Positions 515 to 34,106 of a stretch of DNA of 64,000 nt are shown one piece after another. This DNA comes from Salinibacter pepae (GTDB lineage: Bacteria > Bacteroidota > Rhodothermia > Rhodothermales > Salinibacteraceae). The first letter of the stretch is position 1. Each line of letters begins with the position of its first letter. A program made the position numbers and the translations under genes. The notes beneath the pieces are model-generated. The model had not been told where the DNA came from. It made no database searches and saw only the letters and a program-made list of their open reading frames with translations. Location: contig NZ_CAMTTE010000001.1 of the NCBI RefSeq assembly GCF_947077775.1, forward strand, positions 1,612,001 to 1,676,000, read 5' to 3'.

Positions 515-566
515 AACAGAAGAAAGCAGTTACGTACGGGACAAAGACAATGGGGCACGAAGACGC

Positions 567-938
567 CTACGCAGCCGCCTCGAGGCAGCTATCCACCTTC
601 TCCTCGAGCACCTCCGGCTCGAAGGGCTTCACGATGTAGTTATTCACCTCCGCCTTCATGGCGGTCTTCACGTCCTCCTTCATGCCTCGGGTGGTAATCA
701 TCAGGATCGGGAGGTCCGAGTACTCGGGGTGATTTCGGATGTTGCTAGTGAGGTCCACCCCGTTCATGTTGGGCATATTCCAGTCGGTGACGACGAAGTC
801 CGGGGCGTTTTCCTCCAGCTTTTCCAGCGCGTCCTCGCCGTCCTCGGCCTCCACAATGTCGTCGTAGCCGATCTCCTGGAGGGCATTCCGGATGATGCGG
901 AGCATCGTAGGCGAGTCGTCGACGATCAGGAACTTCAT
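567..938 (-). CDS. cheY: Chemotaxis response regulator CheY
   Basis: A single-domain receiver of 123 residues that carries the signal from the chemotaxis kinase to the flagellar switch. All signature residues are present: the acidic pair D7-D8 (FLIVDDS), phospho-acceptor D52 (VTDWNMP), T82 (MITTRG) and K104 (VKPF). The ATG at 938 (MKFLIVDD) is chosen over an upstream ATG at 968, which would add ten unrelated residues. It is the third gene of the cheW-cheR-cheY-cheZ-like group and probably shares the sigma-28 promoter upstream of cheW. Confidence 0.93.
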   Translation of the reverse strand: MKFLIVDDSPTMLRIIRNALQEIGYDDIVEAEDGEDALEKLEENAPDFVVTDWNMPNMNGVDLTSNIRNHPEYSDLPILMITTRGMKEDVKTAMKAEVNNYIVKPFEPEVLEEKVDSCLEAAA

Positions 939-1006
939 GGGCACAGCAAAGGGGGTTAGTGAAAACAAATGCGTGTGAGTGAACGGCTACCGTCGGGGCG
1001 CCCCCG

Positions 1007-1885
1007 TCATCCTCGCGAGGAGACCGACCCGTTGGTCGGGCGCCGGTAGGCGAGCGCGCCTTCGTGGCGGACGGGCTCCAGCGGGACGTCGAGCCCCCCG
1101 AGCGCCTCCGAGCCGCCGACGAACAAGTAGCCGCCCGGACGGAGCGACCGGTACAGGCCTTGGAGCACGTCCTTTTTGGAGGTCTCGTTGAAGTAGATGA
1201 GCACGTTGGCACACATGATGAGGTCGAAGTTGCGCATCCGCCGCATGTCCCGGGCGTCGGTCAGGTTGAGGGGCCGGAACTCCACCATGTCGCGGATCGC
1301 GGGGTCGACCACGAAGGCCTCGCCCGACTGATCAAAGTAGTCGCGCAGGTAGGCCGGCGGCACGTTCCGGACGGACCGTTTTCGGTAGCGGCCCGCGCGG
1401 GCCTCCTCCAGCACCGCGGTGTCGATGTCCGTCCCCACAATCTCGTAGTCCATGCGCGGGTGGCGCGGCGCAAGCGCCTCCCGGATCAGAATCGCGAGCG
1501 AGTAGGCCTCGTCGCCGGCCGAGCAGGCCGCGCTCCAGAGCCGCATGGGGCCCGACCGTTCCTGCTGGTGCAGCCGCACCAATTCGGGAAGGATGGTGTC
1601 CTCCAGGGCCTCGAACTGCGACGGGTGCCGAAAAAAAGCCGTTTCGTTGATTGTCACCGCGTTCACCAGTCGCGCAATCTCCCTGGTGTCCCCCTGCTCC
1701 AGACGATCCGCGTACGTCTCGAAGTCGGGCACGTCCTGTGCCAGGAGGCGCGGCCTGACTCGGCTTTCGAGGAGGTATCGCTTCTCGTCGGGAAAGTCGA
1801 TGCCGGCATGCTCGCGCACGAGGTCGCGGAGGCGGTCAAACGTTTGTCTGGAGAGCGACGCCTCTGCTGCGGACGGTTTTTTCAT
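1007..1885 (-). CDS. cheR: Chemotaxis protein methyltransferase CheR
   Basis: An S-adenosylmethionine-dependent methyltransferase (292 aa) that methylates glutamates of chemoreceptors during adaptation. The N-terminal helical CheR domain is followed by the catalytic domain. Visible motifs are TINETAFFR, the SAM-binding WSAACSAGDEAYSLA, the acidic GTDID, and CANVLIYF near the C-terminus. Length is standard. A strong Shine-Dalgarno sequence (GAGGAGG) lies five bases before the ATG. It lies between cheW and cheY; no receptor, cheA or cheB is visible, so those must be elsewhere. Confidence 0.95.
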   Translation of the reverse strand: MKKPSAAEASLSRQTFDRLRDLVREHAGIDFPDEKRYLLESRVRPRLLAQDVPDFETYADRLEQGDTREIARLVNAVTINETAFFRHPSQFEALEDTILPELVRLHQQERSGPMRLWSAACSAGDEAYSLAILIREALAPRHPRMDYEIVGTDIDTAVLEEARAGRYRKRSVRNVPPAYLRDYFDQSGEAFVVDPAIRDMVEFRPLNLTDARDMRRMRNFDLIMCANVLIYFNETSKKDVLQGLYRSLRPGGYLFVGGSEALGGLDVPLEPVRHEGALAYRRPTNGSVSSRG

Positions 1886-1930
1886 ATGTGCCTCCTCAGG
1901 GAGAAATTGCTAGGAGCGTTCGGGGACCCG

Positions 1931-2449
1931 TCATGCCGCGACGCCTTGTGCGGCGGCCGCGTCGGCCTCGTCTTCCTCCATGCCCTGCAGGGCCTCGGCC
2001 TCCTCCTCGGAGAAGATGCCGTCCAGGTCCAGCAGAATGAGGAGCCGCTCGTCGAGCTTCGCCACGCCCCGCAGGAAGTGCGTGTCGATGTTTGTGGCAA
2101 GGTCGGGGGCCGGCTCGATCGTGCTCTCCTCCACGCGGAGGACTTCGCGGACGGAGTCGGTCACGAACCCGACCGTCTGGTCCTGCAGCTCCACCACGAG
2201 AATGCGCGTGTCCTCGTCCTGGTCGCGCTCCGGGAAGCCGAGGCGCGTGCGCAGGTCAATGATCGGAAGGATGCGTCCGCGCAGGTTGATGACGCCCTCT
2301 ACGAAGTCGGGCGCATGGGGCACGCGGGTGATCTCGACGGGACGGATGATTTCCTGCACCGTCAGGATGTCGACCCCGAATTCCTCCTCCGCCACGATGA
2401 AGCTGACGAACTGGCGGACGTCTTCGGTTTGCGAGTCGGGTTCGCGCAT
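1931..2449 (-). CDS. cheW: Chemotaxis coupling protein CheW
   Basis: An adaptor (172 aa) that links chemoreceptors to the CheA kinase. The CheW fold is recognisable from VSFIVAEEEFGVDI, VQEIIRP, VINLRGRILPIIDL and the C-terminal ILLDLDGIFS. The start MREPDSQTEDVRQF at 2449 is preferred to an ATG at 2503, because the longer form adds 18 low-complexity residues and would begin only about 7 bases downstream of the promoter -10 element. It is the first gene after a sigma-28-type promoter at 2510-2536, so the chemotaxis genes can be transcribed apart from the flgB operon. Confidence 0.93.
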   Translation of the reverse strand: MREPDSQTEDVRQFVSFIVAEEEFGVDILTVQEIIRPVEITRVPHAPDFVEGVINLRGRILPIIDLRTRLGFPERDQDEDTRILVVELQDQTVGFVTDSVREVLRVEESTIEPAPDLATNIDTHFLRGVAKLDERLLILLDLDGIFSEEEAEALQGMEEDEADAAAAQGVAA

Positions 2450-2509
2450 GGAAACAGAACAAGTCGACGATGAAAGAGAAGGGCGGCGGTTGAGACGGTC
2501 CACTTTCCA

Positions 2510-2536
2510 TTATCGGCGGCCGAGCCGGATTCTTAA
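2510..2536 (-). promoter_or_regulatory. Sigma-28 (FliA)-type promoter of cheW
   Basis: On the minus strand: TAAG, 14 bases, GCCGATAA. The -10 element (2510-2517) lies about 60 bases upstream of the cheW ATG. It matches the known sigma-28 pattern (TAAA, about 15, GCCGATAA) and five other sites in this window with the same 14-base spacer. Confidence 0.8.
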
Positions 2537-2636
2537 CCCCTGGGGCCCCTCCCTCTAGTCCAACGCCGAGGCCTCGTCTCTTCCACAAGGCCCCGGCAAA
2601 GAGAAGCCAACAACACGTGGCGGCCGGCCAATCAGA

Positions 2637-3938
2637 TTACCGCTTGAGCTGGACGGTCTGGTTGAGGACCTCGTCCGCGGTCGTGATGATCTGGGAGGAG
2701 GCCTGGTAGCTACGCTGGGCCTTGATGAGGTCGGAGAATTCCTTCGCGAGGTCCACGTTGCTCGACTCCAGCGACCCGGACACCACGGACGTCTGCAGGT
2801 CGCGGCCCGCACGTCCGAGCTGAAGGTCCCCTGAGGCGCCGGTCGTGGTGAAGAAGTTCTCGCCCTGCTGCTCCAGGCCGTTCGGGTTGTTGACGTCGCC
2901 GATGGCCAGCTGATATTCCTCCTCCTGCACCCCGTTGGTGTAGTTGAGCTGCAGCTTGCCCTCCGGCGTGAACTGAACGCCGGACAGCTCCCCCGACGAG
3001 TTGCCGTTCTGGCCCTGGAATTTCGACGTGGTCGAGCCACTGAACTGCGTAATGTCGCGCAGGCTGATGCCCAAGCTTTTGCCCCCTTGAACCGCATCAC
3101 TCGTCCAGTCGAGACTCACCCCGTCGTTGGTCCCGTTGCCGTCTGGGTCGTACGCGTTGGTCACGCCTGAAATCGAGTCTACGGAACCGTCGTCCTTGAA
3201 CGTGATCGTTCCGTTGGCGTCGCCCGGACCGCCTGCGTTGGCGTTTTGAAGGACGCCATCAGGGTCCTCTACGCTGAATGTCCACTCGTCATCGGTCGCC
3301 GTCTTTTCGAAGTTGAGGACCACGTTGTGGGCCTTCCCCTGCTCGTCGTAGACGACGCTTGAAATCTCACTCGTGTCCCCGTCGGTCGCGTCGGCCGAGA
3401 GGTTGCCCCCAACCTCCGCCTCGGTGGTGGCTTTCGCCGCGGACTGGGCATTGGGGTCGAACCGGATGTTCTTGAGCTCGCCCGTATCGGCCGTCCCGTC
3501 CTCCCCAACCTCCCAGCCCTGCACGTTCAGGCCGTTGGCCGTGACGAGTTCGCCGTCCTGGTTGAACGAGAAGTTGCCGGCCCGCGTGAGGCGACGCTGG
3601 TCGCTCGCCGCCCCGCTTTTGGGGCTGGCGACGAAGAATCCGTCCCCGTTCAGCGCGAGGTCGGTCTTGATGCCGGTGTCGTTGAGCGAGCCCTGCGAGA
3701 AGTTCCGGTCGATCGAGGCGACCGAGACGCCCCGCCCCACCTTCGAGGGGTTGATGGACGAGCCGCCCGCCGTGCGCCCCACGCCCAGAATCTCCTGGCC
3801 GAGCTCCTCACTGAACGCGGCCCGCTGGCGCTTGAAGGCCGTCGTGCTGGAGTTTGCGATGTTGTTGCTGACCGTGTCGAGGCGCGTCTGGTGACTTCGA
3901 AGCCCAGAGACGCCGATGCTCAAAGACTGAAGACTCAT
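2637..3938 (-). CDS. flgE: Flagellar hook protein FlgE
   Basis: The 433-residue subunit of the flagellar hook. The N-terminus (MSLQSLSIGVSGLRSHQTRLDTVSNNIANSST, residues 1-32) is the conserved rod/hook D0 helix with the SNNIAN motif, followed by LALNGDGFFV. The C-terminus has SSNVDLAKEFSDLIKAQRSY and ends VLNQTVQLKR, pairing with the N-terminal helix. The central part is variable and rich in Asp, Gly, Thr and Asn. It ends the flgB operon, after the TIGR02530-type gene, and is followed by the cheW promoter. It is longer than FlgF or FlgG, as expected of FlgE. Confidence 0.95.
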   Translation of the reverse strand: MSLQSLSIGVSGLRSHQTRLDTVSNNIANSSTTAFKRQRAAFSEELGQEILGVGRTAGGSSINPSKVGRGVSVASIDRNFSQGSLNDTGIKTDLALNGDGFFVASPKSGAASDQRRLTRAGNFSFNQDGELVTANGLNVQGWEVGEDGTADTGELKNIRFDPNAQSAAKATTEAEVGGNLSADATDGDTSEISSVVYDEQGKAHNVVLNFEKTATDDEWTFSVEDPDGVLQNANAGGPGDANGTITFKDDGSVDSISGVTNAYDPDGNGTNDGVSLDWTSDAVQGGKSLGISLRDITQFSGSTTSKFQGQNGNSSGELSGVQFTPEGKLQLNYTNGVQEEEYQLAIGDVNNPNGLEQQGENFFTTTGASGDLQLGRAGRDLQTSVVSGSLESSNVDLAKEFSDLIKAQRSYQASSQIITTADEVLNQTVQLKR

Positions 3939-4125
3939 AGGTCTCAGGTGTGTTGTTGGAGAGAGATACGTCGAAACGAGCGCGGCCTCGGTCGGTCAGC
4001 CGCGCACCGGCGTCCCGTGCCTCGCTCCGCCATGGAGGCGAGGCGTGGGTCCCGCCGGGTGGTACCCGAAAAGCGATTCAGCAAGCGAGTCGGTAGGAGT
4101 GTGTCACGAGGGATGTTGGGGGGAG

Positions 4126-4524
4126 CTAGAGCCGGACGGCGCTGTCGATGTCCGTGAAGACCCGCCGCTGCATTTCGGTCTGGTCGAGGGCCGTGACGAC
4201 GGTCCGGCTCGGCACGTTGACCACGAAGGCCGCGTCCTCGCGGAGGACGGCCGCGTCCTGGGCCCCCTTGTCGTCGAGCTGGTTCATGGCGTCGGCGAGG
4301 TCTTGGCGTTGGCCGGCGTCGAGCGAGATGTTGCGCTGCGCGACCCGCTGCTTGGCGTGGCCGGAGAGCTCAATGCCGTCCGTCTGCTCCTGCGCCGCCT
4401 CCAGGTGGTCGGCAAACGACGCCTCGTCCGTGTCTTTGGACGGAGCGTCGGGCGAGGACGGCTCCGACGGCGTCTGCCGGAGCGCGTCCGGCGGGACGCG
4501 TCCGTTTCGCTGGTGGACCGTCAT
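4126..4524 (-). CDS. Flagellar operon protein, TIGR02530 type
   Basis: A small 132-residue protein between flgD and flgE. Residues 52-125 (IELSGHAKQRVAQRNISLDA ... LREDAAFVVNVPSRTVVTALD) match the pattern I know for the flagellar operon protein family TIGR02530, found between flgD and flgE in many Gram-positive and other bacteria: S-x-HAxQRxxxR, then a hydrophobic VVNVxxRTVxTA strand. The first 50 residues are a disordered Pro/Ser/Asp-rich tail. Its molecular role is not established; the position suggests hook assembly. Confidence 0.78.
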   Translation of the reverse strand: MTVHQRNGRVPPDALRQTPSEPSSPDAPSKDTDEASFADHLEAAQEQTDGIELSGHAKQRVAQRNISLDAGQRQDLADAMNQLDDKGAQDAAVLREDAAFVVNVPSRTVVTALDQTEMQRRVFTDIDSAVRL

Positions 4525-4571
4525 GGGGACACCGCATTGCCCATTAAGAGCGGCGAAGAGGGAACCGGGGG

Positions 4572-5294
4572 CTACTGGGCCGCAATGCTCTGCACACGCC
4601 CCATCGACACCTGCGCCCCCCCAATGCGGAGGGACGTCTTCCCGTCCTTTAGCGTCACGCGATCGACGGTGCCCTCCAGTCGCGCGGTCCCCTCAATGGC
4701 GTCCCCGCTCCCGCCCGTGGCGCTGACCTCCACCGAATACGTGCCGTCGGGCACCTGTGCGCCCCCGTCCGCCGCGCCGTCCCAGGTGACCTCCGTGCTC
4801 TGCGATACATTCTCGAGGGTTTTCGTCCGCACCGCGTTGCCCCCCGCGTCGCGGATCGTGACCGTGGCCTCGGCGGCCGGGCGCTCCAGGTCGACCCCGA
4901 AGGTCGCCTCCCCCTCCCCCGTCCACCGCAGGGTGTTGCCCGAGGTCTTCACCGTGCGCCCGATGAGGTCGGTCGCGATGCCGTCGTTGATGCTCTGGGC
5001 CAGGGCCCCGTCGCTCGTTCCCTGCTCCTCAATCTGGCCGCTGATGTTGGTGAGCTGCTCGACGGAGCTAAACTGGGCCAGCTGTGCGGCAAAGTCTTTC
5101 CCCTTCATCGGGTTTGAGGGGTCCTGATTCTGAAGCTGCGTGGTTAGCAGCTTTAGAAAGTCGTTCTTGCCGAGGTTCGCCGAGGTGGCCTGCGAGAGGG
5201 CACCGTTGCCGCCCGATTCCCCGCCCTGCGAACCGTCTCCGTTCGGGAGGACGGCCGGGCTCGGCGCCGCGGACGATGCGAGGGACTCAATCAT
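4572..5294 (-). CDS. flgD: Flagellar hook assembly scaffold FlgD
   Basis: The 240-residue hook-cap protein needed for FlgE polymerisation. The diagnostic N-terminal block is [20 protein letters not shown] (residues 43-62), followed by [21 protein letters not shown]. The C-terminal half has the FlgD Ig-like and tudor-like pattern ([20 protein letters not shown]). The ATG at 5294 ([10 protein letters not shown]) is preferred over one 20 codons upstream. It follows fliK in transcription order, the usual fliK-flgD-flgE arrangement. Confidence 0.93.
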
Positions 5295-5375
5295 GTCGTG
5301 GGGGGACGTTGGTGTGTGGAACGCAAACAGTGAAGCACAAATGCTGGGGCGCAAACATCGTGCGGGCCGACGGGC

Positions 5376-7322
5376 CTACCCGATCCACTCCCGCCGGCCA
5401 CGGCCGCGGAGGGAGGCGCCACTGGATTCATCCGCGTCGGTCGACTCGTCTCCGGGAGCCAGGGCGGAGGCCCCCTCGGCGGACGCCCCGTCCGAGGCCT
5501 GTTGGTCCGACTCGTTCGCGTCGCCCCCGCCAAAGGACAGGTCGACGTCGGTGCCGTACTGGGCCTGCATGGCGTCCTGGAGCTGACGCGCATTGGACGC
5601 CACCTGGGCCTGTACCCGGGTCTCGCTGAACCCGACCGACACGGCCGTCTGCTCCTGCCCCTGCCGGGCCTTGACGGTCATCGTGCCCTTGTCCTCGCCC
5701 AGCGACATCTCCAGGGCCTTCCACCCCCCCGCAAGTTCTGCCGTCCGCAGGGGGCCATTCTTTGCCGCGTTGAGCCACGCCGAGGGCATTGTGCGAGGGG
5801 GGGCCGACTTGCCGGTGGGACGCGCGTCCGCCTTGGCCTTCGACGCCGCGCCCGACCCGCCCCCGGACGCGCTTGTCCCCTTTCCGTCCGTCTGCGTGCC
5901 GCCGCTCGTCGAGGCGCCGTCCTGCGTCAGGGAGGCGCGGAGCGTACGGGCGTCGGACTCCCCCGACGTACTCGTGGACGAGGACGCGAGGGCCTGAAAC
6001 CCAGGCCCGTTCTTCGGCCCCTGCGCCTGTCCCTTTTGCCCCTGCCCGTTCTGTCCGGGGCCCTGCCTCTGCTGGCCGCCGCCCTGCTGGCCCGTTCCGC
6101 CCCGCTGTCCCGATCGGCCCCGGCCTCGCCGTCCCGCAGACCGGGTGCCGTCCCGGGCCGTCCGGGCCGTCCGCCCCTCGTCTGTCCCCTCCCGCCCACG
6201 TCCCGACTCTGCGCCTCCCCCCTTCAGGGCGGACGGGGAGATCTGCTTCCCGCGCGTCCCGTCCTTCTTGGCGCTTCCTCCCGTCTTGGAGCCGGCCTCC
6301 TGGGGACGTCCAGCGCCCCCCCGTGCCTGTCCCTCCGAACGCACTCCGCTTGGGCGGGGCGATCGGCCTGCGTTCTGCCCCGGACGGCGCTTCTCGCCGG
6401 CGAGAAGCGTGCCCTCCTGGCCCGGGCCCCGGCCTCCCTTTCGGGCCGACGCCCCCGCCCGTTCGCCCTCGGGCATCCGCCTCACGGCCCCCTTCCCCTT
6501 GGAGGACGGCCCGTCTGATCCGTGGCCGGACCGGCCTTCTCCGGACTCAACGGCGATCGTGCCCGGCGATACCCGGCCCTGTTTTGCACGGCCCGACCCG
6601 GTCCCGGACGACGAGGCGCCGTTCGCCCCCGCTCCCCCCCCCTCCCGAGGCCCCGTGCCTGGCAGTTTGTTGCGTTCCGCCCTCCGTGCCGCCCGCCCCC
6701 TTCACCACGGGGACCGTCTTCTGTCCCCTCTGCGCCGACCGTGCCGTTCCGTCCCCCGACGTGAACGCCACTCGGCCCCAGCCCCCCCGGACCTGCGTCC
6801 CGCCCTCGGTCTTTTGCCCCGACGACGGGGCATTTCCCCCTTCCCCGCCGGCCCGCACCGCCCGGACGACGAGCGACCCCACGGTCTCACCTCCTCGTGT
6901 ATTCTCTCCTCCGGCCGCGCTCTTGCCTCCAGCCGCGTGCAAAATGGGCATCAGTTTCACCGTCTCCGCCGAGGCCGACGGGCCGGCTCCGCTCGCCCTT
7001 TCGCCCTCGCCCGCAAGCAGGATTCGCTTCTGTGCCTTGCCCTCCCCGTTCCCGGCCCGAAGAAGCGCCCCGCCTAACAACGCCGCGAGCCCCCCTCCTC
7101 CCCGTCGGCCGTCTTTCCCTCAAGGCCGGCCGTCCCCTCGCCCCCCAACACGAAACGCTGGGCCGCGCGTCCCCCGCCCTCCGCGGCGGTTCCGGACGCA
7201 CGTTGCACGCCGGACAAGATCGCCGGGAAGGCCGTGGCGCCCGTGCCCGCCTTCGCCTGCTTCGTGACGGGGGACTGCTGGGCGGCCTCTTCGGTCGGTC
7301 GCGTGAGGCGAATCGCTTGCAT
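5376..7322 (-). CDS. fliK: Flagellar hook-length control protein FliK, frame broken twice
   Basis: One locus of about 648 codons spread over three frames. The N-terminus starts MQAIRLTRPTEEAAQQ at 7322 and reads to a stop at 7074. The second frame covers about 7090-6640, and the third runs to 5376. Switches fall at C runs of 6 (7090-7095) and 9 (6634-6642); a one-base change at each joins the frames into a Gly/Ala/Gln/Lys-rich sequence. The C-terminal block (WKALEMSLGEDKGTMTVKA, then VQAQVASNARQLQDAMQAQY) resembles the FliK C-terminal substrate-switch domain. A motif like LLAGEG recurs near each third (FVLGGEG, ILLAGEG, TLLAGEK). Position between motE and flgD fits fliK. The cause is either base-calling error or true slippage in poly-G. 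Confidence 0.75.
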
Positions 7323-7362
7323 GGTAGAGAGGGCCCTCTGCGGGGCCGATTGAGGAAAAAGG

Positions 7363-8052
7363 TCAGCGGCCGGGCGACGCGCCCCGGCCTTCGTCTCTGT
7401 CGGTCGCCTGCGCGGCGGTCGTGTCGGCGGGCGCATCGTCGCCCCCGACAACCTGATTCACAAACTGTGCCGTCCGCTCCGCCGAGATGGCAGTGAGCAG
7501 TTGGGTGCGCGTTCGCCCCGAGGTGCGCTGGTACAGCTCCTTGAGGACCGCCATGTTCACGTTCGCCAGCACGGTCGCGAGCTCCCGCCGGCCCATGCCG
7601 AGCAGGGCGTCCTTCAGCTCGCCCACCTTCGCCTCCCGGCTCTCCAGCGACGTGATCTGTGCCTGCAGGGTGTCGGCCTCCGCCTCGGCCGTGCGGAGCT
7701 GCTCCTTGAGGGCCCGGAGCGAATCCTGAAGCTGCCCGACGACCGTAAGGGAGTCCCGAAGCCGCGAGACCAGCGAGGACGCCACACGCGTCGAATCGCG
7801 GAGCGCGCGCCCCGTCGAGTCGCGGGACGCCCGCGTTGCGGTCGTGTCCGACGACGTCGCGGTCGTGTCCCCGGGCAGGGACGCCTGTCGGGTCGTGTCG
7901 CGCCCGGACGCGTCGAGGCTGTCGGCGGACACCCCCGCCGTCTCCGGCGCGATGGACGGCATCAGCAGGTACGCCCCCAGCAGGGCGACCGCGAAGGCCC
8001 CCAGCGCCGCGCCCGCAATGAGAAGTCCGTACTTGATCACGGTCGACTGCAT
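7363..8052 (-). CDS. MotE-like membrane protein (MgtE-N-type flagellar chaperone)
   Basis: A 229-residue protein with one N-terminal membrane helix (residues 9-31), a Thr/Ser/Asp-rich linker, a coiled coil (about residues 95-145, LQDSLRALKEQLRTAEAEAD), and a small helical domain near LKDALLGMGRRELATVLANV that resembles the MgtE N-terminal fold. This architecture is that of MotE, a chaperone of the stator protein MotC in some bacteria and commonly encoded between fliJ and fliK, as here. No stator genes are visible, so the partner is unknown. The family assignment rests on architecture and gene order. Confidence 0.7.
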   Translation of the reverse strand: MQSTVIKYGLLIAGAALGAFAVALLGAYLLMPSIAPETAGVSADSLDASGRDTTRQASLPGDTTATSSDTTATRASRDSTGRALRDSTRVASSLVSRLRDSLTVVGQLQDSLRALKEQLRTAEAEADTLQAQITSLESREAKVGELKDALLGMGRRELATVLANVNMAVLKELYQRTSGRTRTQLLTAISAERTAQFVNQVVGGDDAPADTTAAQATDRDEGRGASPGR

Positions 8053-16696: not shown

Positions 16697-16783
16697 GGTT
16701 CGACCGTCCGTCCACAGGGGCGCGTCCGTCTCGCGTCCCGGCCCCCCGTGCAGCACACGTTCACCCCACCGACCCCGCCAAGC

Positions 16784-18322
16784 ATGAACACAACCGCACC
16801 CACGTCCCCTGCGACCACCTCTCCGCACATTCTGGCCGTCGACGACGAGGTCATGCTCCACGACGTCTTCGAGCGCCTCTTCCCGCGCGAGGGGATCGAG
16901 GTGACGGCCTGCTCAAGCGGCACAGAGGCAATCGAGCTGTTGGAGGAGGCCGCCTTCGACCTCGTCCTGGCCACCCACCAGATGCCGGGGCCCAACGGCA
17001 TGGAGCTGCTGGACCACATCCAGGAGCACCACCCGACGGTGCGCGTGATCCTGCTCTCGGACCAGGACAACGCGCAGAACGCCGTGCGGGCGATGCAGAA
17101 GGGGGCCGCCGACTACATTCCGAAGCCGTTCTCGACCGACGAGCTCGTGGACCGCGTAAAGGGCCTCCTCGAGAAGCCGGCCCCGTCTGCGCAGCCGGGC
17201 AGCCTACCGGGCGGCGACTCCGCACCCGGCGCCGCAAACGTGACCTCGGCCGACGGGGCCCCCACCGGCCGCCCCGACGACCCGGATCTCTCGACCAGCT
17301 CCTCGCTCTTTTCCCAGGACGGGGCGCCGGAGAGCGACGCCCAGTTCGTCGGGGCGCACGAGAGCATCCAGCACCTCAAAACGATGGTGCCGCGGGTCGC
17401 GCAGAGCGAGGCCCCGGTGTTCATCCACGGGGAGAGCGGGACGGGGAAGGAGATTCTCTCTCAGCTGATTCACGACCGGAGTGCCCGCGCCGACGCGCCC
17501 TACGTCCCCATCAACTGCGCCGCCCTGCCGAGCGACCTGGTGGAGAGCCACCTGTTCGGGCACGTCGAGGGGGCGTTCACCGGCGCGGTGGACGACATGG
17601 AGGGGGCGTTCGAACGGGCCGACGGGGGGACGCTGCTCCTCGACGAGATCACGGAGATTGACTGCGGCGTCCAGGCGAAGCTCCTGCGCGTGCTGCAGGA
17701 ACAGCAGTTTCAAAAGGTGGGCGCCTCGGAGAAGAAAGAGGTGGATGTGCGCATCGTCGCCACGAGCAACCGGGACCTCAAAGAAGCGGTGGAGGAGGGC
17801 GCCTTCCGGAAAGACCTGTACCACCGCCTGGCGGTCTTTCCCCTCCACGTGCCGCCCCTGCGGGGCCGCCTCTCCGACATTCCCCTGCTGGCCGAACACT
17901 TCGTGGAAAAATACACCGCCCAGTACGACCTTCCGGACAAATCGCTGTCGGGCGGGCTGCTACAGCACTTTCAAACCCACAGTTGGCCCGGTAACGTGCG
18001 GGAGCTTGAAAACATGATCCACCGGGGCGTGGTGATGGCCGCCGACGCGGACACCATCACGAAGGAGCACGTCCTGAACGCGTCGTTCACGCGGGACGGG
18101 GCCGCCGCCGACGCGGAGGGGGACGCGGGGAGTGCGACGCTCACCCAACTGGCAGACGGAGACGGCCCGCCAACCATTGCCGAGATGGAGCGCAAGCTCA
18201 TTCTACGCACCCTCTCGCAGGAGGACGTAAGTCAGAAGCGCGCCGCCGAGAAGCTCGGGGTTAGTGCGCGGACCATCCGCAACAAACTGCAGGAGTACCG
18301 GGAGGACGGGTTCTCAATCTAG
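16784..18322 (+). CDS. Sigma-54-type activator with receiver, FlrC/NtrC-like
   Basis: A 512-residue regulator. The receiver (residues 14-130) keeps the acidic pair (VDDE) and the Lys (IPKPF), but the phospho-acceptor position reads LATHQMPG, with Thr64 in place of Asp. The AAA+ domain has Walker A GESGTGKE, the sigma-54 contact GAFTGA, Walker B GGTLLLDEI, and RWxx-type sensor segments ending SWPGNVRELENMI. The C-terminal Fis-type helix-turn-helix reads RAAEKLGVSARTIRNKL. It is paired with the kinase upstream. It ends 11 bases before the convergent flgM-like gene. An ATG at 16748 is an alternative start. Confidence 0.85.
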   Translation: MNTTAPTSPATTSPHILAVDDEVMLHDVFERLFPREGIEVTACSSGTEAIELLEEAAFDLVLATHQMPGPNGMELLDHIQEHHPTVRVILLSDQDNAQNAVRAMQKGAADYIPKPFSTDELVDRVKGLLEKPAPSAQPGSLPGGDSAPGAANVTSADGAPTGRPDDPDLSTSSSLFSQDGAPESDAQFVGAHESIQHLKTMVPRVAQSEAPVFIHGESGTGKEILSQLIHDRSARADAPYVPINCAALPSDLVESHLFGHVEGAFTGAVDDMEGAFERADGGTLLLDEITEIDCGVQAKLLRVLQEQQFQKVGASEKKEVDVRIVATSNRDLKEAVEEGAFRKDLYHRLAVFPLHVPPLRGRLSDIPLLAEHFVEKYTAQYDLPDKSLSGGLLQHFQTHSWPGNVRELENMIHRGVVMAADADTITKEHVLNASFTRDGAAADAEGDAGSATLTQLADGDGPPTIAEMERKLILRTLSQEDVSQKRAAEKLGVSARTIRNKLQEYREDGFSI

Positions 18323-26271: not shown

Positions 26272-26769
26272 CTACTCAATGAGGTCGCGCACCGCCGGCC
26301 CCGTAGCGTGGGCCTGGGCGCGCCGCGCCGTCTCGGCCTGGGCCTGCATCTGGAGCTTCGCGGCCCGGGCCTGCGCTCGCGCCCGATCGGCGCGGGAGAG
26401 ACGGGGGCCCGTCGCGTCCAGCACGCTGTACTCGGGGGCGTCGTTTTCCCCAGACGGGGCCTCCTGCGGATCCGGGGCCGGCGCGTCATCCCGGGCCCCG
26501 TCACCCGTCGCCAGCTCGGCGGTCGTGGCCCCGAGGTCGTCGAGAGAATCGGACGGGATCCGCATCGGACCGTCGGGCCACGCCCCCGCGCTGGCCCGGC
26601 TCACGGGCCGCCCGTCGATGCCGGTGCGTGTGGGGCTGGAGGTGCTGCCCGTCGCGTGGGGGACGTGCACACGTGCTCCGCCGTCCGGGATTGACTCCGG
26701 GCCGGGGCCGAGCGGGAGGAGAAACGTCGTCGGGGCGACGGGACGGGGCGAGGCCGAAAAGACACGCAT
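26272..26769 (-). CDS. Orphan protein under a sigma-28-type promoter
   Basis: I do not recognise this 165-residue protein (start MRVFSASPRPVAPTTF, ATG 26769). Residues 1-115 are Pro/Gly/Ala/Asp-rich and look disordered. The last 45 form an Ala/Gln/Arg-rich amphipathic helix (ARAQARAAKLQMQAQAETAR) ending PAVRDLIE. There is no signal peptide. A sigma-28-type promoter (26840-26866) identical in layout to those of known flagellar genes lies about 70 bases upstream, so I infer a late motility gene, possibly exported like FlgM or FliK. A reading on the opposite strand exists but lacks such support. Confidence 0.62.
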   Translation of the reverse strand: MRVFSASPRPVAPTTFLLPLGPGPESIPDGGARVHVPHATGSTSSPTRTGIDGRPVSRASAGAWPDGPMRIPSDSLDDLGATTAELATGDGARDDAPAPDPQEAPSGENDAPEYSVLDATGPRLSRADRARAQARAAKLQMQAQAETARRAQAHATGPAVRDLIE

Positions 26770-26839: not shown

Positions 26840-26866
26840 TTATCGGAGGTGAGCGGGGGACTTTAA
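26840..26866 (-). promoter_or_regulatory. Sigma-28-type promoter of the orphan gene
   Basis: On the minus strand: TAAA, 14 bases, TCCGATAA. The -10 element is at 26840-26847, about 70 bases before the ATG at 26769. Confidence 0.75.
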
Positions 26867-27098: not shown

Positions 27099-28358
27099 TT
27101 ACTGGAGGAGCGAGAGGACGCTCTGGCCCGCTGCGTTGGCCTGCGCCAGCTGCGCGGTCCCGGACTGCTGCTGCACCTGCAGCTTCGCGACCTGCGTCTG
27201 CTCGCGAGCAAAGTCCGCGTCCTCAATCCGGCTCTGCGCCGCGTTCAGGTTCGTCTGGCTCGTCTCCAGGTTCGACTCCTTGAACGAGAGCCGGTTCTGG
27301 CTCGCGCCCAGGTCACTGAGCTGGCTGGTCAACCCGTCGATGGCACTGTCCACGTCGTCGATGATGTTGCGGGCCTCGTCGGCGCTGCCGCCCTCCAGTC
27401 GGGTACCGATGTCTTGATTGTCCCGGACTTCCACCGTGAAGCTCTTCGTTTCACCAGAGCCGATTTGACCCGTCGTAATGTTCAAATTGCTGGCATCAAG
27501 TGCAATCTTATTGCTCCCGTCACTCGACAGGGTCAGTGTGTCGTTAGTGCCAGTAAACGTGCTTGTGGCACCAGTGCCCGCAAAGGTAGCCGTGGTGCCG
27601 GTGGCACTGAGCGTGAGGGTAGACCCATTCTTTTGTGCGTTAATCTCGAAGGTGCCGCCTTCGAGGTCTCCGGCTAGGTTCGTCCCAGATGAATCTAAGG
27701 TTTTAAACCCCCCTGTCGTGAGGGCCGTGACGGCACTCGACGTGCTGGAGAAATCCCCAGCATTCACGTTCTGGCCAGCGTTGTCTCCGGTGTTGGACGT
27801 TGCATCTAAGTTACTCGCCACCCCGAGGTCCTGGGCGGTGGAGTTGGCGATATTGACGTCGAAGGTCTGGTCGCTCTCCGACCCGGTCTGGAACGTCAGC
27901 CCGACGGAGTTGCTGCTGTCCCCCGACGTCCCGCCCTTGATCAACTGGTCGCCGTTGAACGTCGTGTTCTCGGCAATGTCGTTGACCTCCCCCACCAGCT
28001 CCTGCAGCTCCCCCGCAATCGCGTCCCGCTCGTTCTGCGACAGGCTGCCGTTGGCCGCCTGCGTGGCCTTCTCCCGGGCGGACTGCAAAATGCCAAGCTG
28101 GGAGTCGAGCGCCCCCTCCGCCGTGCTGAGCGTGCTCTTCGCGTCCCCGATGTTGCGGAGCGCCTGCTGCTGAGACCCGGTCCGCGCTTCCAACTGGGCC
28201 GCAATCTCAAAGCCGGCGGCGTCGTCGGAGGCACTGTTGATGCGCAGCCCCGTCGAGAGCCGCTCTCGGCGCGTGGCCAGCTCCTCACTGGTGTCCGACA
28301 GGTTCTGGAAGGCCTGCTGGGACTGAATGTTGGTGTTGATCTGCGAAAAACTGCTCAT
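27099..28358 (-). CDS. Flagellin (downstream copy)
   Basis: A 419-residue filament subunit. The N-terminal D0/D1 region (SSFSQINTNIQSQQAFQNL; LSTGLRINSASDDAAGFEIA) and the C-terminal region (RIEDADFAREQTQVAKLQVQ; AQANAAGQSVLSLLQ) are classic. The first 175 residues and about the last 90 are identical to those of the neighbouring flagellin, while the central domain differs. No sigma-28 site lies in the 59-base gap before it, so it is probably read through from the copy upstream and ends at the terminator at 27014-27051. Confidence 0.95.
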   Translation of the reverse strand: MSSFSQINTNIQSQQAFQNLSDTSEELATRRERLSTGLRINSASDDAAGFEIAAQLEARTGSQQQALRNIGDAKSTLSTAEGALDSQLGILQSAREKATQAANGSLSQNERDAIAGELQELVGEVNDIAENTTFNGDQLIKGGTSGDSSNSVGLTFQTGSESDQTFDVNIANSTAQDLGVASNLDATSNTGDNAGQNVNAGDFSSTSSAVTALTTGGFKTLDSSGTNLAGDLEGGTFEINAQKNGSTLTLSATGTTATFAGTGATSTFTGTNDTLTLSSDGSNKIALDASNLNITTGQIGSGETKSFTVEVRDNQDIGTRLEGGSADEARNIIDDVDSAIDGLTSQLSDLGASQNRLSFKESNLETSQTNLNAAQSRIEDADFAREQTQVAKLQVQQQSGTAQLAQANAAGQSVLSLLQ

Positions 28359-28417: not shown

Positions 28418-29701
28418 TTACTGGAGGAGCGAGAGGACGCTCTGGCCCGCCGCGTTGGCCTGCGCCAGCTGCGCGGTCCCGGACTGCTGCTGCACCTGCA
28501 GCTTCGCGACCTGCGTCTGCTCGCGAGCAAAGTCCGCGTCCTCAATCCGGCTCTGCGCCGCGTTCAGGTTCGTCTGGCTCGTCTCCAGGTTCGACTCCTT
28601 GAACGAGAGCCGGTTCTGGCTCGCGCCCAGGTCACTGAGCTGGCTGGTCAACCCGTCGATGGCACTGTCCACGTCGTCGATGATGTCGCGGGCCTCGCCG
28701 GCACCGGCGTTCTGTAGCCGGGTGCCGATGTCCAGCTCGTCGCGGACCTCCACGGTGAAGCTTTTCGCCTCGCCGCCGTTTTCGAGACTATCCGTTGCGA
28801 TGCTGATATTGCTCCCCGTCACCGAAATAGTCGCGGACGTACCGCCAGTGGTGCTTGAAAGCGTCAGCGTCTCAGAGCTGGTGCCATTGAATATCGTTTC
28901 TCCTCCACTCGTAGTAGTCCCGGTGATTGTTGTGGAATTGCCATTGGCACTGAGCTTAATCGAATCGGTCGCAGTTTGCTCGACCGACACGTCAAACTCA
29001 CCGCCTTTGAGGTTGTTGACGAGACTTGTCTGTGCGCTGCCATTCGTAATATTGACATTTCCTTCAACTCCAGACACAGCAGTCTCAGCGAAGTCTCCTG
29101 CGTTGACGAGCTGCCCACCTCCACTATCTACTGATGTCGACGCGTCGACATCCGTCTGCCGGATCCCGAGGTCTTCGGCGGTGGAGTTGGCGATATTGAC
29201 ATCGAAGGTCTGGTCGCTCTCCGACCCGGTCTGGAACGTCAGCCCGACGGAGTTGCTGCTGTCCCCCGACGTCCCGCCCTTGATCAACTGGTCGCCGTTG
29301 AACGTCGTGTTCTCGGCAATGTCGTTGACCTCTCCCACCAGCTCCTGCAGCTCCCCGGCGATCGCGTCCCGCTCGTTCTGCGACAGGCTCCCGTTGGCCG
29401 CCTGCGTGGCCTTCTCCCGGGCGGACTGCAAAATGCCAAGCTGAGAGTCGAGCGCCCCCTCCGCCGTGCTGAGCGTGCTCTTCGCGTCCCCGATGTTGCG
29501 GAGCGCCTGCTGCTGAGACCCGGTCCGCGCTTCCAACTGGGCCGCAATCTCAAAGCCGGCGGCGTCGTCGGAGGCGCTGTTGATGCGCAGCCCCGTCGAG
29601 AGCCGCTCCCGGCGCGTGGCCAGCTCCTCACTGGTGTCCGACAGGTTCTGGAAGGCCTGCTGGGACTGAATGTTGGTGTTGATCTGCGAAAAACTGCTCA
29701 T
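28418..29701 (-). CDS. Flagellin (promoter-proximal copy)
   Basis: A 427-residue flagellin starting MSSFSQINTNIQSQQ at 29701. A longer ATG start adds 32 residues that are not flagellin-like. N- and C-terminal polymerisation domains are the same as in the downstream copy. The central segment (about residues 176-335) is distinct and rich in Thr, Ser, Gly and Asn with few charges other than acidic ones, suitable for surface exposure and modification. A sigma-28-type promoter lies about 105 bases upstream. Neighbouring plus-strand sulfotransferase genes suggest possible modification of this protein or its glycans. Confidence 0.95.
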   Translation of the reverse strand: MSSFSQINTNIQSQQAFQNLSDTSEELATRRERLSTGLRINSASDDAAGFEIAAQLEARTGSQQQALRNIGDAKSTLSTAEGALDSQLGILQSAREKATQAANGSLSQNERDAIAGELQELVGEVNDIAENTTFNGDQLIKGGTSGDSSNSVGLTFQTGSESDQTFDVNIANSTAEDLGIRQTDVDASTSVDSGGGQLVNAGDFAETAVSGVEGNVNITNGSAQTSLVNNLKGGEFDVSVEQTATDSIKLSANGNSTTITGTTTSGGETIFNGTSSETLTLSSTTGGTSATISVTGSNISIATDSLENGGEAKSFTVEVRDELDIGTRLQNAGAGEARDIIDDVDSAIDGLTSQLSDLGASQNRLSFKESNLETSQTNLNAAQSRIEDADFAREQTQVAKLQVQQQSGTAQLAQANAAGQSVLSLLQ

Positions 29702-29803
29702 GGGTCTCGGCTGGGTTGATGTAGAGGATCTCAGTGAGCGTGCGTGGCAGGTGCGTCCGGGCATCGGTCCGCCGCCCGGCGTCGTGCATCGGCTCACCCC
29801 CGG

Positions 29804-29830
29804 TTATCGGACACGGACCGGGGTTTTTAA
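29804..29830 (-). promoter_or_regulatory. Sigma-28-type promoter of the flagellins
   Basis: On the minus strand: TAAA, 14 bases, TCCGATAA. The -10 element is at 29804-29811, about 105 bases before the flagellin ATG. As flagellin is the standard FliA target, this site anchors the reading of the other five. Confidence 0.85.
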
Positions 29831-30039
29831 ATCAGCTCGGCCCGGCCCGCCGACGGCTTTGTTCTGTGCAGTATTCTCGAGGGGCGGCCGTCCGTGAGAA
29901 AAAATGGTGGGGAAGCTGGCTCAGTGTTTGCTCCGAATTGACGTTGCACACGCGGGCGCTCGTGCATCGTGCTTTCGCGTGCGGACATCTCGGCCCGCCG
30001 GTTCTCGTTCTGCTTTGTCTCACTTTCACCGGCTGTTCC

Positions 30040-30897
30040 ATGCAATTTGTCGTCAGCTACCCCAAAAGCGGCAACACGTGGGTTCGCCTCGTGGCCGCCG
30101 CGTACACGCTCTCCGACGACGTGCTGATGGAATCCCTGCGGTCTCCCAGCGCGTCGGCCGACCTTCCCGCCTCCCTTCAGTATACCGACGTGGAGCGGTA
30201 CCAGTACCAGACCATCTGCCCCTTCCCGATCGACGACATCAATTTTCCGACGGAGGTGCGGTTGCGCCCCGCCGCCATGCTCGTGCTCAACCGGGAGAAG
30301 AGCCTCACCACGAGCCAGCGCCCGGCCCTCATCAAGAGCCATCACATCAACGGGGAGGTCAACAACATCAATCTCTGGAATGGGGGATGGGCCGAGCACG
30401 TCGTCAACCCCGTCCGCGACCCTCGCGAGATCTGCTGCTCGTTCGCCGCGCACCGCGAGATGAGCTACATGGAGACGGCCGAGCTCATGAACGACTCCAC
30501 GGCCCGGATGGGCGAAGACGGGGCGCGCGTTCACAGTCTTCTTACCACCTGGAGCACCCACGTCCGCAGCTGGCTCGAGGAAGAGACGATTCCCGTCCAC
30601 ACCGTGCGCTACGAGGACCTGCAGGCCGACCCGGTCGGCGAGTTCTACGACATCCTGGACTTTCTGGAGGTGGAGGACCTGACGGAGGAGCGGGTGGAGG
30701 ACGCCGTCGAGCGGACCCGCTTCGACCGGATGCAGGAAATGGAGGCGGAGCACGGCTTCCACGAGACCACCGCGGACCAGGAGCAGTTCTTCCGCTCCGG
30801 GCAGACGGCCGGCTGGACGGACGAACTCCCGACCGACGTGGCCCGCAAGATTGAGGCGGACCACGGGCCGACGATGGAGCGACTCGACTACCTGTAG
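30040..30897 (+). CDS. PAPS-dependent sulfotransferase, copy 1
   Basis: A 285-residue cytosolic-type sulfotransferase, predicted to transfer sulfate from PAPS to a hydroxyl or amine. The 5'-phosphosulfate loop is SYPKSGNTW (residues 6-14). The 3'-phosphate motif is VNPVRDPREICCSFAAH. A catalytic-His candidate lies in LIKSHHINGEVNN, followed by VRYEDLQADPVGEFYDILDF. The ATG at 30040 gives MQFVVSYPKSGNTW, the family start, matching copy 2. No signal peptide. It lies 338 bases from the divergent flagellin start and has a paralogue immediately downstream. The acceptor is unknown; flagellin, its glycan or a lipid are candidates. Confidence 0.85.
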   Translation: MQFVVSYPKSGNTWVRLVAAAYTLSDDVLMESLRSPSASADLPASLQYTDVERYQYQTICPFPIDDINFPTEVRLRPAAMLVLNREKSLTTSQRPALIKSHHINGEVNNINLWNGGWAEHVVNPVRDPREICCSFAAHREMSYMETAELMNDSTARMGEDGARVHSLLTTWSTHVRSWLEEETIPVHTVRYEDLQADPVGEFYDILDFLEVEDLTEERVEDAVERTRFDRMQEMEAEHGFHETTADQEQFFRSGQTAGWTDELPTDVARKIEADHGPTMERLDYL

Positions 30898-30987
30898 CCG
30901 GTCGCTTCCCCACTTCGGCCCGGAGAGGAACCGAACGATTTTCCGGTCCTCCCTACGCAGCTTTTACGATCACGACCGCCCCTTCCC

Positions 30988-31850
30988 ATGCAGTTTGTCG
31001 CCAGCTACCCCAAGAGCGGAAACACCTGGATTCGCCTCGTCGCCGCCGCGTACTCGTTGCAAAACGTCACCGCCGAAGACTTCATGCGGTTCAACGAGGA
31101 CGACGAGTCCCGCATCAGCAACGTGATCCGGTTTGGGGACGGGACCAAGTACTACTACCAGGCGGTCAGCCCCTACCCCATCAAGGCCCTTGACTTTTCG
31201 GCGCAGGCCCGTCTCCGGCCGGCCGCCATGCTCAAGCTCGAACACGAGCTGTCGGAGACGACGACCCAGCGTCCCATTCTGGTGAAGAGCCACCATCTCA
31301 ACGGCGACGTGGACGGCGTCAACCTCTGGAATCCGGCGTGGACCGACCGGGTCGTGAATCCGGTCCGCGACCCGCGGGAGGTCTGCTGTTCATTCGCCGC
31401 GCACATGGGAAACAGCCTGGAGAAGACCGCCGAGCAGATGAACGAGGAGAAGTTCACCATTGGGGGCGGGGAGAACCTCTTTCACCTGCTCGGCACCTGG
31501 TCGCAGCATGTCCGGGGGTGGCTCAGCGCCGACGAGACCCCCGTCCACACCGTGCGCTACGAGGACATGAAGGCCAACCCCGTCGGGGAGTTCTACGACA
31601 TCTTGGACTTTCTGAACGCGCCCGACCTGACCGTCGAACGGGTGGAAAAGGCCGTCGAGAAAACGCGATTCGACCGGCTCAAACAGAAAGAAAACGAGCA
31701 CGAGTTTCCCGAGTCCACCAAGCACCAGGACAACTTTTTCCGCTCCGGCAAGACGGACGGCTGGAAGGAGAGCTTCCGGTCCGGCTCGTCCGCAAGATCG
31801 AAAAGGACCACGGCGACATGATGAACGCGCTGGGCTACGGGTATCTGTAG
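30988..31850 (+). CDS. PAPS-dependent sulfotransferase, copy 2, frameshifted near the end
   Basis: A paralogue of the preceding gene (MQFVASYPKSGNTWIRLVAAAY, two short blocks nearly identical). The PAPS loop, the NPVRDPREVCCSFAAH motif, KSHHLNGDVDG and VRYEDMKANPVGEFYDILDF are all intact. The frame is lost at about 31764-31775. One extra base there lets the protein continue as LPVRLVRKIEKDHGDMMNA and end LGYGYL at 31850, parallel to copy 1. As written, the unshifted frame stops at 31821. About 287 residues if repaired. The motifs lie before the break, but the C-terminal helix does not. Confidence 0.8.
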
Positions 31851-31860
31851 TGGACCCGAC

Positions 31861-32007
31861 GGGCCGGCCGGCTTTCCGGAGGCCGGCGACAAACAGGTGT
31901 TCCGCTCCGGAGAGACCGAAGAGTGGAAGGGGGAGGTGCCGGTCGGGGTCGCCCGCACGATCGAAGAGGACCATGGCACGGTGATGGAGGCCCTCGGCTA
32001 CCTGTAG
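31861..32007 (+). pseudogene. C-terminal remnant of a third sulfotransferase
   Basis: An open stretch without a start encodes about 48 residues. It includes DKQVFRSGETEEWKGEVPVG and a tail ARTIEEDHGTVMEALGYL, which aligns with the C-terminal ends of copies 1 and 2 (FFRSG ... KIExDHG ... L). The rest of the gene is absent; it begins directly after copy 2. It is probably left from unequal recombination within a tandem array. Confidence 0.75.
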
Positions 32008-32068: not shown

Positions 32069-33073
32069 CTACGCCGCGAGGGGCGTGCCGGACGGCCGGT
32101 CCGGCGCCTCCGCGTCCGACGTGCCCACGAAGAAGTCGGTAAAGAGCATCACCATCTCCTTCTTCGCCCGCAGCCGGTCCATGAGGTCCGGGGGCGGGCC
32201 GTCGGCCTCGGGGGCGGGGTTCCAGTGCCGCCACACCGGCCGGGCGGCGCACGCGGCCCAGTCGATCGGCTCCGCCGTGGGCGCCACGCCGGCGAGGGGC
32301 GCCCCCATCGCCTTCGCGGCGAGGTTGGCCGCCCGGACGGCCCGCAGCGTGCGCCGCGGCGCGTCGCCCGTCTCGGAACGGGGCGGGTGGTGGTGGCGGA
32401 TCACGTCGACGAGCGTCTGGGGAAAGTTCAACTCCAGGGCGGCGTAGGCCCCGGCCTGGCCGTGGTCGCACCCGAAGACGAACCGCTCCAGGGTGCGGTC
32501 GTCCGTCTCCTGGAGGTGCTCCGCAAACCGCTTCTCCTCGTAGAGCGCGGCGGCCTTTTCAGGGTAGTTGTAGAACAGGACCAGCTTGCCGAAGTCGTGG
32601 AGCAGCCCCTCCGCGAAGCCCTCCCCCTGGGTGACGTCCGACTCCGGGGCCGGGCCGTCGTCGGCCGGCGACAGCGGGCCCAGCAGGCTGCTCGCGAGGA
32701 AGCCCGTCGCCTCGCTGTGTCGGATGAACCGGTGGAAGCAGGCCTCCACGGGCCCGTCGGCCAGCTCGTCCATCCGCAGCATGCCGAGGCTCACGACCGA
32801 GCCCGCGGCGGTGGTGGTGCCCATCATGCGGATCGCCCGCCCCACGTCCGAGATGGAGCGGCGGAGGCCGTAGTAGGCGGAGTTGATCTGTTTGAGCAGC
32901 CGCGCGGTGGCGGCCGGGTCGTGCTGCACGATCTCGGTCAGGTCCTCCGGGTCGGTAAAGCCCGGCTCGTGGAGGAGCTCCAGGACACTGGGGAGCGTGC
33001 GCGGGAACGGCGGCACACGCAGGTCGAGGTCGCGCAGGGCCGCGTCAGGCGTTTGGGACGGGTCGGTGCTCAT
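32069..33073 (-). CDS. HDOD-domain signalling protein
   Basis: A 334-residue protein whose residues 15-290 form an HDOD domain (a degenerate HD phosphohydrolase relative used in signalling): LRVPPFPRTLPSVLELL, the VQHDPAATARLLKQINSAYYG block, SDVGRAIRMMGT and LLHDFGKLVLF. No second catalytic or output domain is visible. It lies 72 bases after flgL on the same strand and is probably the last gene of that unit. HDOD proteins occur near chemotaxis and flagellar genes in other phyla, but the role here is unproven. Confidence 0.82.
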   Translation of the reverse strand: MSTDPSQTPDAALRDLDLRVPPFPRTLPSVLELLHEPGFTDPEDLTEIVQHDPAATARLLKQINSAYYGLRRSISDVGRAIRMMGTTTAAGSVVSLGMLRMDELADGPVEACFHRFIRHSEATGFLASSLLGPLSPADDGPAPESDVTQGEGFAEGLLHDFGKLVLFYNYPEKAAALYEEKRFAEHLQETDDRTLERFVFGCDHGQAGAYAALELNFPQTLVDVIRHHHPPRSETGDAPRRTLRAVRAANLAAKAMGAPLAGVAPTAEPIDWAACAARPVWRHWNPAPEADGPPPDLMDRLRAKKEMVMLFTDFFVGTSDAEAPDRPSGTPLAA

Positions 33074-33145
33074 CGGACTGGGGCGCCGGGGCGCGGGCCG
33101 CAGGAAGGGGCGGGCCGCGGGGCCGGCTCGGGTTCAGGGGTCGTG

Positions 33146-34106
33146 CTAGAGGAAGTTCACGAGGGACGTTTGCCGTGTGGAGGAGGTGGCCTGGAAGGCC
33201 GCCTGCAACTGGGTCTGCCGCTGCTGGAGCTCCGAGATGGCGGTGGCGAGGTCCGTGTCTTCGGCGTCGGAGCGCCGCTCGTTGGCCTCCAACGACGCCG
33301 CCTCCACCTGCTCCTGGGCCGTGGTGAGGCGCCGCCCAATCGCGCCCGCCTCCGAGCCCTTCGAAATCACGTGGTCGAGCGCGTCCTCCACCTCGCCGAG
33401 GGCCGTGCTGATGTCCGGGTCCGGCGGCCCGCTCGGGGGCATTGTCGGCCGGGTCCACGGCCTTGATCAGGTTGTCGAGGGCGCCGGTGATGGTCTTCGG
33501 GTCCCCGCCGGCCGTGGTGCCGTACTGGGCGAGCGCCTTGCCGTCGACGTTGACCGTCAGGTCCTGGTTTTTCCCGATCGGCCGGGTGCGGTCGCCGTCG
33601 AGGGCATCGAGGGCCCCGTTGATGGGGGCGTCGCTGTTGACATCACCGTCCTCGTTGAACGGCTGCGTGTCGGTGCGATTGCCGGCGAAGATGTACTCCC
33701 CGTCCTGCGTGCTATTCATCCGGTCCACGACCTCGTCCTTGATGGAGCGCAGCTCGTCGGCGATGGCCCTCCGGTCGTCATCGCTGCGGGTGTCGCCGGC
33801 GGCCCGGACGCCGTCCTCGCGGGCCGTGGTGAAGAGGTCGGCCAGGCCGTCGAGCTCCTGCTGGGTGCGGTCGACGAACGTGCGGGCGCTGGCGATCGAC
33901 TCCTCGCGCCGCGCCAGCTTGTTGCCGAGCGTCTTCATCCGCTCGGCCGTGGCGAACGAGGCGGGGTCGTCCGAGGGGCGGTTGATCCGCGTCCCCGAGC
34001 TGATCTGCTCGCGGAGGCGGCTGATGTCGCGCTGCAGGCGGGGCACCTCGTCGGAAATCACGCCGGAGTAGACACTTGAATTGGTGGCGATGCTAACGTT
34101 GGCCAT
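33146..34106 (-). CDS. flgL: Hook-filament junction protein FlgL, frameshifted
   Basis: A junction protein of about 320 residues. The N-terminus (MANVSIATNSSVYSGVISDE; QISSGTRINRPSDDPASFAT) is FlgL/HAP3-like, followed by EYIFAGNRTDTQPFN, a FlgL hallmark. After a run of five G (33435-33439) the frame changes. Removing one base gives NAPSGPPDPDISTALGEVED and the C-terminal helix ending SSTRQTSLVNFL, which is flagellin-like. It follows flgK across an unusual 221-base spacer. The break is more likely a base-calling error than decay because both halves are well preserved. Confidence 0.85.

Follow-up and report, generated by a model that had tools for sequence, protein, structure and literature searches.

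The 64-kb window analysed here, which is the whole stretch of DNA under study, comes from a 3.63-Mb genome of the genus Salinibacter and raises the question of what tandem sulfotransferase genes do amid the genes for a bacterial flagellum. Two such genes, ST1 (30040–30897, + strand; 285 aa, intact) and ST2 (30988–31821, + strand; 277 aa as read), are followed by the relic of a third copy (31864–32007, + strand). The array is flanked on one side by two flagellin genes (27099–28358 and 28418–29701, both on the − strand, with PF00669/PF00700 matches), whose products, the substrates proposed below, contain no tyrosine and in the second case have a Ser/Thr-rich centre, and on the other side by an HDOD-domain gene (32069–33073, − strand; PF08668, 1.4e-32) and then flgL (33048–34106, − strand; a Flagellin_N match). 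The earlier note on this DNA had placed the array between the flagellins and flgL; the position is right, except that the HDOD gene, which is also a neighbour of flgL or flagellin elsewhere in the order, intervenes between the array and flgL. The note had also described an eroded third copy, and the relic is indeed a C-terminal fragment of 47 codons, which aligns with ST1 residues 239–285 (58% identity over 47 residues). This array is not a chance reading, since an identical gene order is found in four other species.

ST1 and ST2 match the Sulfotransfer_1 profile (PF00685) with scores of 91.1 bits (1e-25) and 84.4 bits (1e-23), for a curated cut-off of 22. Both carry the PAPS motifs (SYPKSGNTW, R126/S134 and FFRSG) and the catalytic KxH (K99 and H101), and the PKSGNTW loop (5'-PSB), R126 and S134 (3'-phosphate), K99 and H101 are invariant across 46 sequences. 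The presence of two PAPS-dependent sulfotransferases with cofactor motifs, proposed previously, is thus confirmed, and a gene for the supply of PAPS, encoding APS kinase, is present in the genome. The AlphaFold model of ST1 (pLDDT 91.7) has the sulfotransferase fold, and the nearest solved folds are Teg12, Teg14, StaL and SULT1 (Z 18–21, 216–232 residues aligned), the comparison of the predicted model with Teg12 giving Z 21.0 over 232 residues. ST1 and ST2 have the PAPS motifs, the catalytic KxH and solubility in common with these enzymes but differ from them in sequence (about 18–26% identity) and in being encoded next to flagellin; in addition, these nearest fold relatives of ST1 act on small molecules or glycopeptides, which counts against flagellin as the acceptor. 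The ST1 and ST2 sequences start directly at the first strand of the sulfotransferase domain and therefore look cytosolic, from which we infer that they are soluble cytosolic PAPS-dependent sulfotransferases. The genome contains seven further sulfotransferase genes, and ST1 matches only ST2 and the relic in its own genome at E 0.001.

Within the genus, the array tracks flagellin. Strong ST1/ST2 homologues are found in exactly the five flagellin-bearing Salinibacter species (G000, G002, G003, G004 and G007); the eight species that lack flagellin also lack such homologues, and their genomes are at least 93% complete except for two that are only 83% complete. Both enzymes are present in G003, G007 and G002, while G004 has a single, ST2-like one that lies 146 bp from the start of a contig, so that the absence of ST1 there may be an assembly gap. 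The ST1 orthologues of G007, G002 and G003 are 82–93% identical to ST1; S. altiplanensis AN15 has an ST1 with 93% identity, and S. altiplanensis is a cultured species in which both ST1 and ST2 are intact. The order flagellin–ST–(relic)–HDOD–flgL is fixed in the five flagellated species wherever contigs allow. In flagellated relatives outside the genus (G024, G026, G035, G048 and G056), flagellin, HDOD and flgL portions of this order are present but no sulfotransferase lies with them, which means that the array was either gained on the Salinibacter branch or lost elsewhere. As the genes are physically linked, their co-occurrence across species may count as one gain or loss event.

The two complete copies are under strong purifying selection: dN/dS between species (NG86) is 0.09–0.18 for ST1 and 0.07–0.22 for ST2, and changes are mostly at third positions. 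The relic, for which dN/dS is about 1.1 and changes are spread flatly over codon positions 1–3 (4, 5 and 4, respectively), evolves neutrally, and this neutral drift rules out that it is a functional small gene. It is also present in G003 (83% identity) and is shorter and more eroded in G007. In phylogenetic trees ST1 and ST2 form separate orthologous clades, indicating an old duplication of which two copies are maintained and a third is decaying. At the level of the species compared, the proposal that the array is under diversifying selection is therefore wrong, as the maintained copies are old orthologous lineages evolving under constraint.

Upstream of ST1, at a distance of 123 bp, lies a sigma-54-type promoter, TGGCTCAGTGTTTGCT (29917–29932, + strand). 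Scored with a simple weighted consensus it is the top sigma-54-like site of the 64 kb, where 0.575 site this good is expected by chance per window of that size in random sequence, both strands included. The pattern TGGnnCnGnGTTTGC recurs unchanged in each of the five flagellated Salinibacter species, 110–127 bp upstream of the first sulfotransferase gene, in surrounding DNA that has diverged. A sigma-28-type promoter, TAAA-N15-CCGATAA, is found upstream of flagellin by motif match (29803–29829, − strand) and has core blocks that are invariant in four species; sigma-28 control of the array itself is ruled out, there being no such site upstream of ST1. A candidate regulator is encoded inside the flagellar cluster, a sigma-54 activator of the response-regulator type (16748–18322, + strand; PF00158, PF00072), which within the genus has an orthologue (64–96% identical) only in the five flagellated species, the best match elsewhere in the genus reaching at most 53%. 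A second sigma-54 match, upstream of the sensor kinase at 25893, was dropped because it is not conserved in G003 or G004. From these sequences, co-regulation of the array with the flagellum is no more than likely, since other flagellar operons in the window have no sigma-54 site of comparable strength and rpoN is not a flagellum-only sigma factor of the genus, flagellin-less species carrying it too.

Neither glycosyltransferases nor other carbohydrate or sulfolipid genes were recognised in the scanned ORFs of the window, in agreement with what the earlier note had remarked, nor was any O-antigen, capsule or sulfolipid cluster recognised near the array. The note had further named, as an observation that would speak against a flagellar function, homologues in non-flagellated relatives lying beside lipid or exopolysaccharide genes; flagellin-less Salinibacter species have no close homologues, and the distant ones adjoin porin, lasso-like or phage virion genes. 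Taken with the fixed place next to flagellin, the phyletic pattern, the selection on both enzymes and the conserved promoter, these observations make a flagellar role of ST1 and ST2 the best reading of the locus, and one that these genomic data support well.

Relatives of the two enzymes elsewhere have other partners. We collected 79 homologous cellular loci outside the genus (28–35% identity), none of which lies close to any of the flagellar genes looked for. An HprK-like gene adjoins the sulfotransferase gene at 35 of them, often with AsnB and a transglutaminase-like B2 protein, a gene set that resembles lasso-peptide clusters and that occurs in the order of the window genome itself (G048 and G057); lasso-like clusters with a built-in sulfotransferase were seen at L066, L067, L082, L095, L099, L139 and others. 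At 29 loci, a porin gene adjoins one to several tandem sulfotransferase genes, and the remaining 15 have neither porin nor HprK-like gene. The arrangement of a porin gene with one to three tandem sulfotransferase genes directly behind it is found in marine Alphaproteobacteria (L079, L084, L086, L093, L101, L121, L136, L151 and others), and such operons, which strains of Roseovarius and Sneathiella carry, are candidate porin-modification operons. They are similar to the Salinibacter array in that tandem sulfotransferases adjoin the gene of an abundant surface protein, but their sulfotransferase genes are on the same strand as the porin gene, whereas those of Salinibacter are divergent from flagellin. 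One of these operons, L079, lies in an assembly labelled Oceanobacillus, a Gram-positive genus, and is probably a contamination or a mislabelled record; a proteobacterial MAG contig, L102, has about ten tandem sulfotransferase matches (1–7982).

A scan of viral contigs yielded 80 further relatives. On most contigs checked, the phage sulfotransferase gene starts within about 80 bp downstream of a short gene of roughly 125–170 codons, and the partners that could be named by PHROG are virion structural protein (3758), head protein (240), tail terminator (179) and, once, major tail protein (9522). A sulfotransferase gene that immediately follows the gene of a head or tail protein was seen on L165–L185, L190, L194, L218, L227 and L238, and phage hallmark genes (terminase, tail sheath, internal virion protein) are present on L227, L167 and L172. 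Annotated phage genomes of INPHARED gave no match with ST1 or with the L172 sulfotransferase, so that the phage evidence comes from metagenomic viral contigs. Sulfation of virions by these enzymes is a lead and not a result, because a late-operon position alone could explain the neighbourhood. The porin, lasso-like and virion neighbours suggest that members of this family tend to be encoded next to polypeptides that are exported or self-assemble. In the tree, the closest relatives of the Salinibacter enzymes are the phage ones (IMG/VR contigs L165–L185 and L227; support 98/94), and within this group they stand next to L170–L173 and L182 (98/87), although identity is 33–36% at best and the partner is a virion protein in phages and flagellin in Salinibacter. 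The AU test rejects placement with the lasso-linked group (p 0.005) and with the porin-linked group (p 0.004, a value that partly also tests monophyly of the porin group), while a sister relation to all phage sulfotransferases is not rejected (p 0.43). The ST1/ST2 lineage thus groups with phage sequences and appears phage-related; with regard to donor and direction of transfer, its branch is long and the bootstrap not fully settled.

Which molecule do ST1 and ST2 modify? Tyrosine sulfation of flagellin is ruled out, as all five full-length Salinibacter flagellins examined lack tyrosine. Their central surface domain has about 190 residues, of which 25–30% are Ser/Thr; the flagellins of G024, a family member without these sulfotransferases, have about 50 residues in this domain, and those of G035, G056 and G057 are longer, with some tyrosine. 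The most economical inference, which we consider reasonably probable, is that the phage-related enzymes act on flagellin, either directly on Ser/Thr or on a glycan that it carries. The array would be transcribed from the sigma-54-type promoter, divergently from the sigma-28-type promoter of flagellin, and the cytosolic enzymes would sulfate flagellin before its export, probably at Ser/Thr hydroxyls in its central surface domain or at a sugar that this domain carries. The benefit could be extra negative charge in brine, or a masked phage receptor, and the maintenance of two old, separate copies suggests two acceptor sites or orders of action. The lack of a recognised glycosyltransferase in the window, together with the lack of any match to MptE/Maf-type genes (PF01973) in the genome, favours direct sulfation of Ser/Thr, while sugars could be added by enzymes encoded elsewhere. 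This glycan route, in which flagellin is O-glycosylated by such enzymes and ST1 and ST2 sulfate the sugars, is a possibility that we entertain with considerable doubt: it has a precedent in a hypersaline organism where two sulfotransferases sulfate filament glycans (PMC11980604), and the seven other sulfotransferase genes of the genome suggest that surface sulfation is in use, but besides the two gene absences just mentioned, no glycosyltransferase is common among the gene families that surround the relatives in porin and lasso-like settings.

Slightly more doubtful, as a whole, is a broader proposal in which direct O-sulfation of flagellin Ser/Thr exemplifies a larger class of sulfotransferases, as yet undescribed, whose target is an exported or self-assembling polypeptide of the adjoining gene (phage head and tail proteins, porins, lasso peptides, flagellin), Salinibacter having taken over a phage-related enzyme whose relatives modify a neighbour-encoded virion protein. 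We know of no enzymatic Ser/Thr sulfation of bacterial proteins and of no family-wide neighbour rule for sulfotransferases, so that both would be new. Alternatively, the array could stem from the capture of two phage-type genes whose products sulfate a polysaccharide or lipid of the cell surface and which sit in the flagellar region by chance. Sulfotransferases of the O-antigen cluster are known from hypervariable regions of Salinibacter (PMC6060240; PMC3669384), the auxiliary metabolic genes described in phages include sulfotransferases (PMC8290583), and homologues outside the genus have no flagellar neighbours, all of which is compatible with such a capture. We nonetheless hold it to be improbable, because none of the eight Salinibacter species without flagellin has the array and because its location and promoter element are conserved in five species, unlike the O-antigen-cluster enzymes, which belong to the same broad family and genus but vary between strains. 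Least probable of all, and in our opinion very unlikely, is that ST1 and ST2 are tyrosylprotein sulfotransferases of the RaxST kind acting on a tyrosine-bearing flagellar part: FliD, FlgK, FlgL and the hook protein FlgE do carry 3–6 tyrosines each, and flgL and flgK are near the array, yet flagellins are its first neighbours wherever contigs allow and no tyrosylprotein sulfotransferase is among the PDB sequence matches, although the latter is weak evidence.

Sulfation of flagellin would parallel what is observed in Halobacterium salinarum, where two sulfotransferases, VNG1056C and VNG1057C, sulfate the N-glycan of archaellin and their loss barely affects motility (PMC11980604). In both cases two sulfotransferases would sulfate the filament with which an extreme halophile swims, an outcome observed in Halobacterium and proposed for Salinibacter; however, archaella and flagella are not homologous, and the Halobacterium enzymes, which act on an N-glycan, are structurally closest to sulfatases (PMC11980604) and unrelated to ST1 and ST2. 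The literature that we searched contains no report, biochemical or mass-spectrometric, of sulfate on any bacterial flagellin. The Salinibacter locus makes sulfation of a bacterial flagellum a concrete idea, with two enzymes and a single proposed substrate that is abundant and easily purified. Were the neighbour rule true, it would predict that the porins of marine Alphaproteobacteria and the virions of many phages are sulfated, and would link surface chemistry to phage receptors.

The window strain itself has several frameshifts in this region. ST2 has the intact cofactor motifs that the earlier note described, and the catalytic KxH as well, but the gene is not fully intact here: one base is missing near 31771 compared with all four relatives (G007, G002, G003 and G004), whose ST2 orthologues are intact and 284–285 aa long. 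The deletion alters the C-terminus after the GWKES / FFRSGKTDGWKES motif, and the relatives' frame would end at 31850. Compared with G003, in which flgL has an intact 319-aa frame, frameshifts also affect fliI (9518 and 9705) and flgL (33435), and fliH is split; the sites in fliI, fliH and flgL (9518, 9705, 10622, 10883 and 33435) are mostly in or near G/C runs. Isolated frameshifting indels number 13 in 39.7 kb here and 9 in 57.5 kb of a control region, intergenic DNA being included in both. The frameshifts reflect either decay of the flagellar region in this strain or sequence errors; unless they are errors, the strain may not build filaments. Finally, a 165-aa ORF (26272–26769, − strand) has a C-terminus resembling that of flagellin and, at 26865, a sigma-28-like promoter. 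It is conserved in G003 and G004 with dN/dS of 0.37–0.57, and may be either a short derivative of flagellin or an old remnant.
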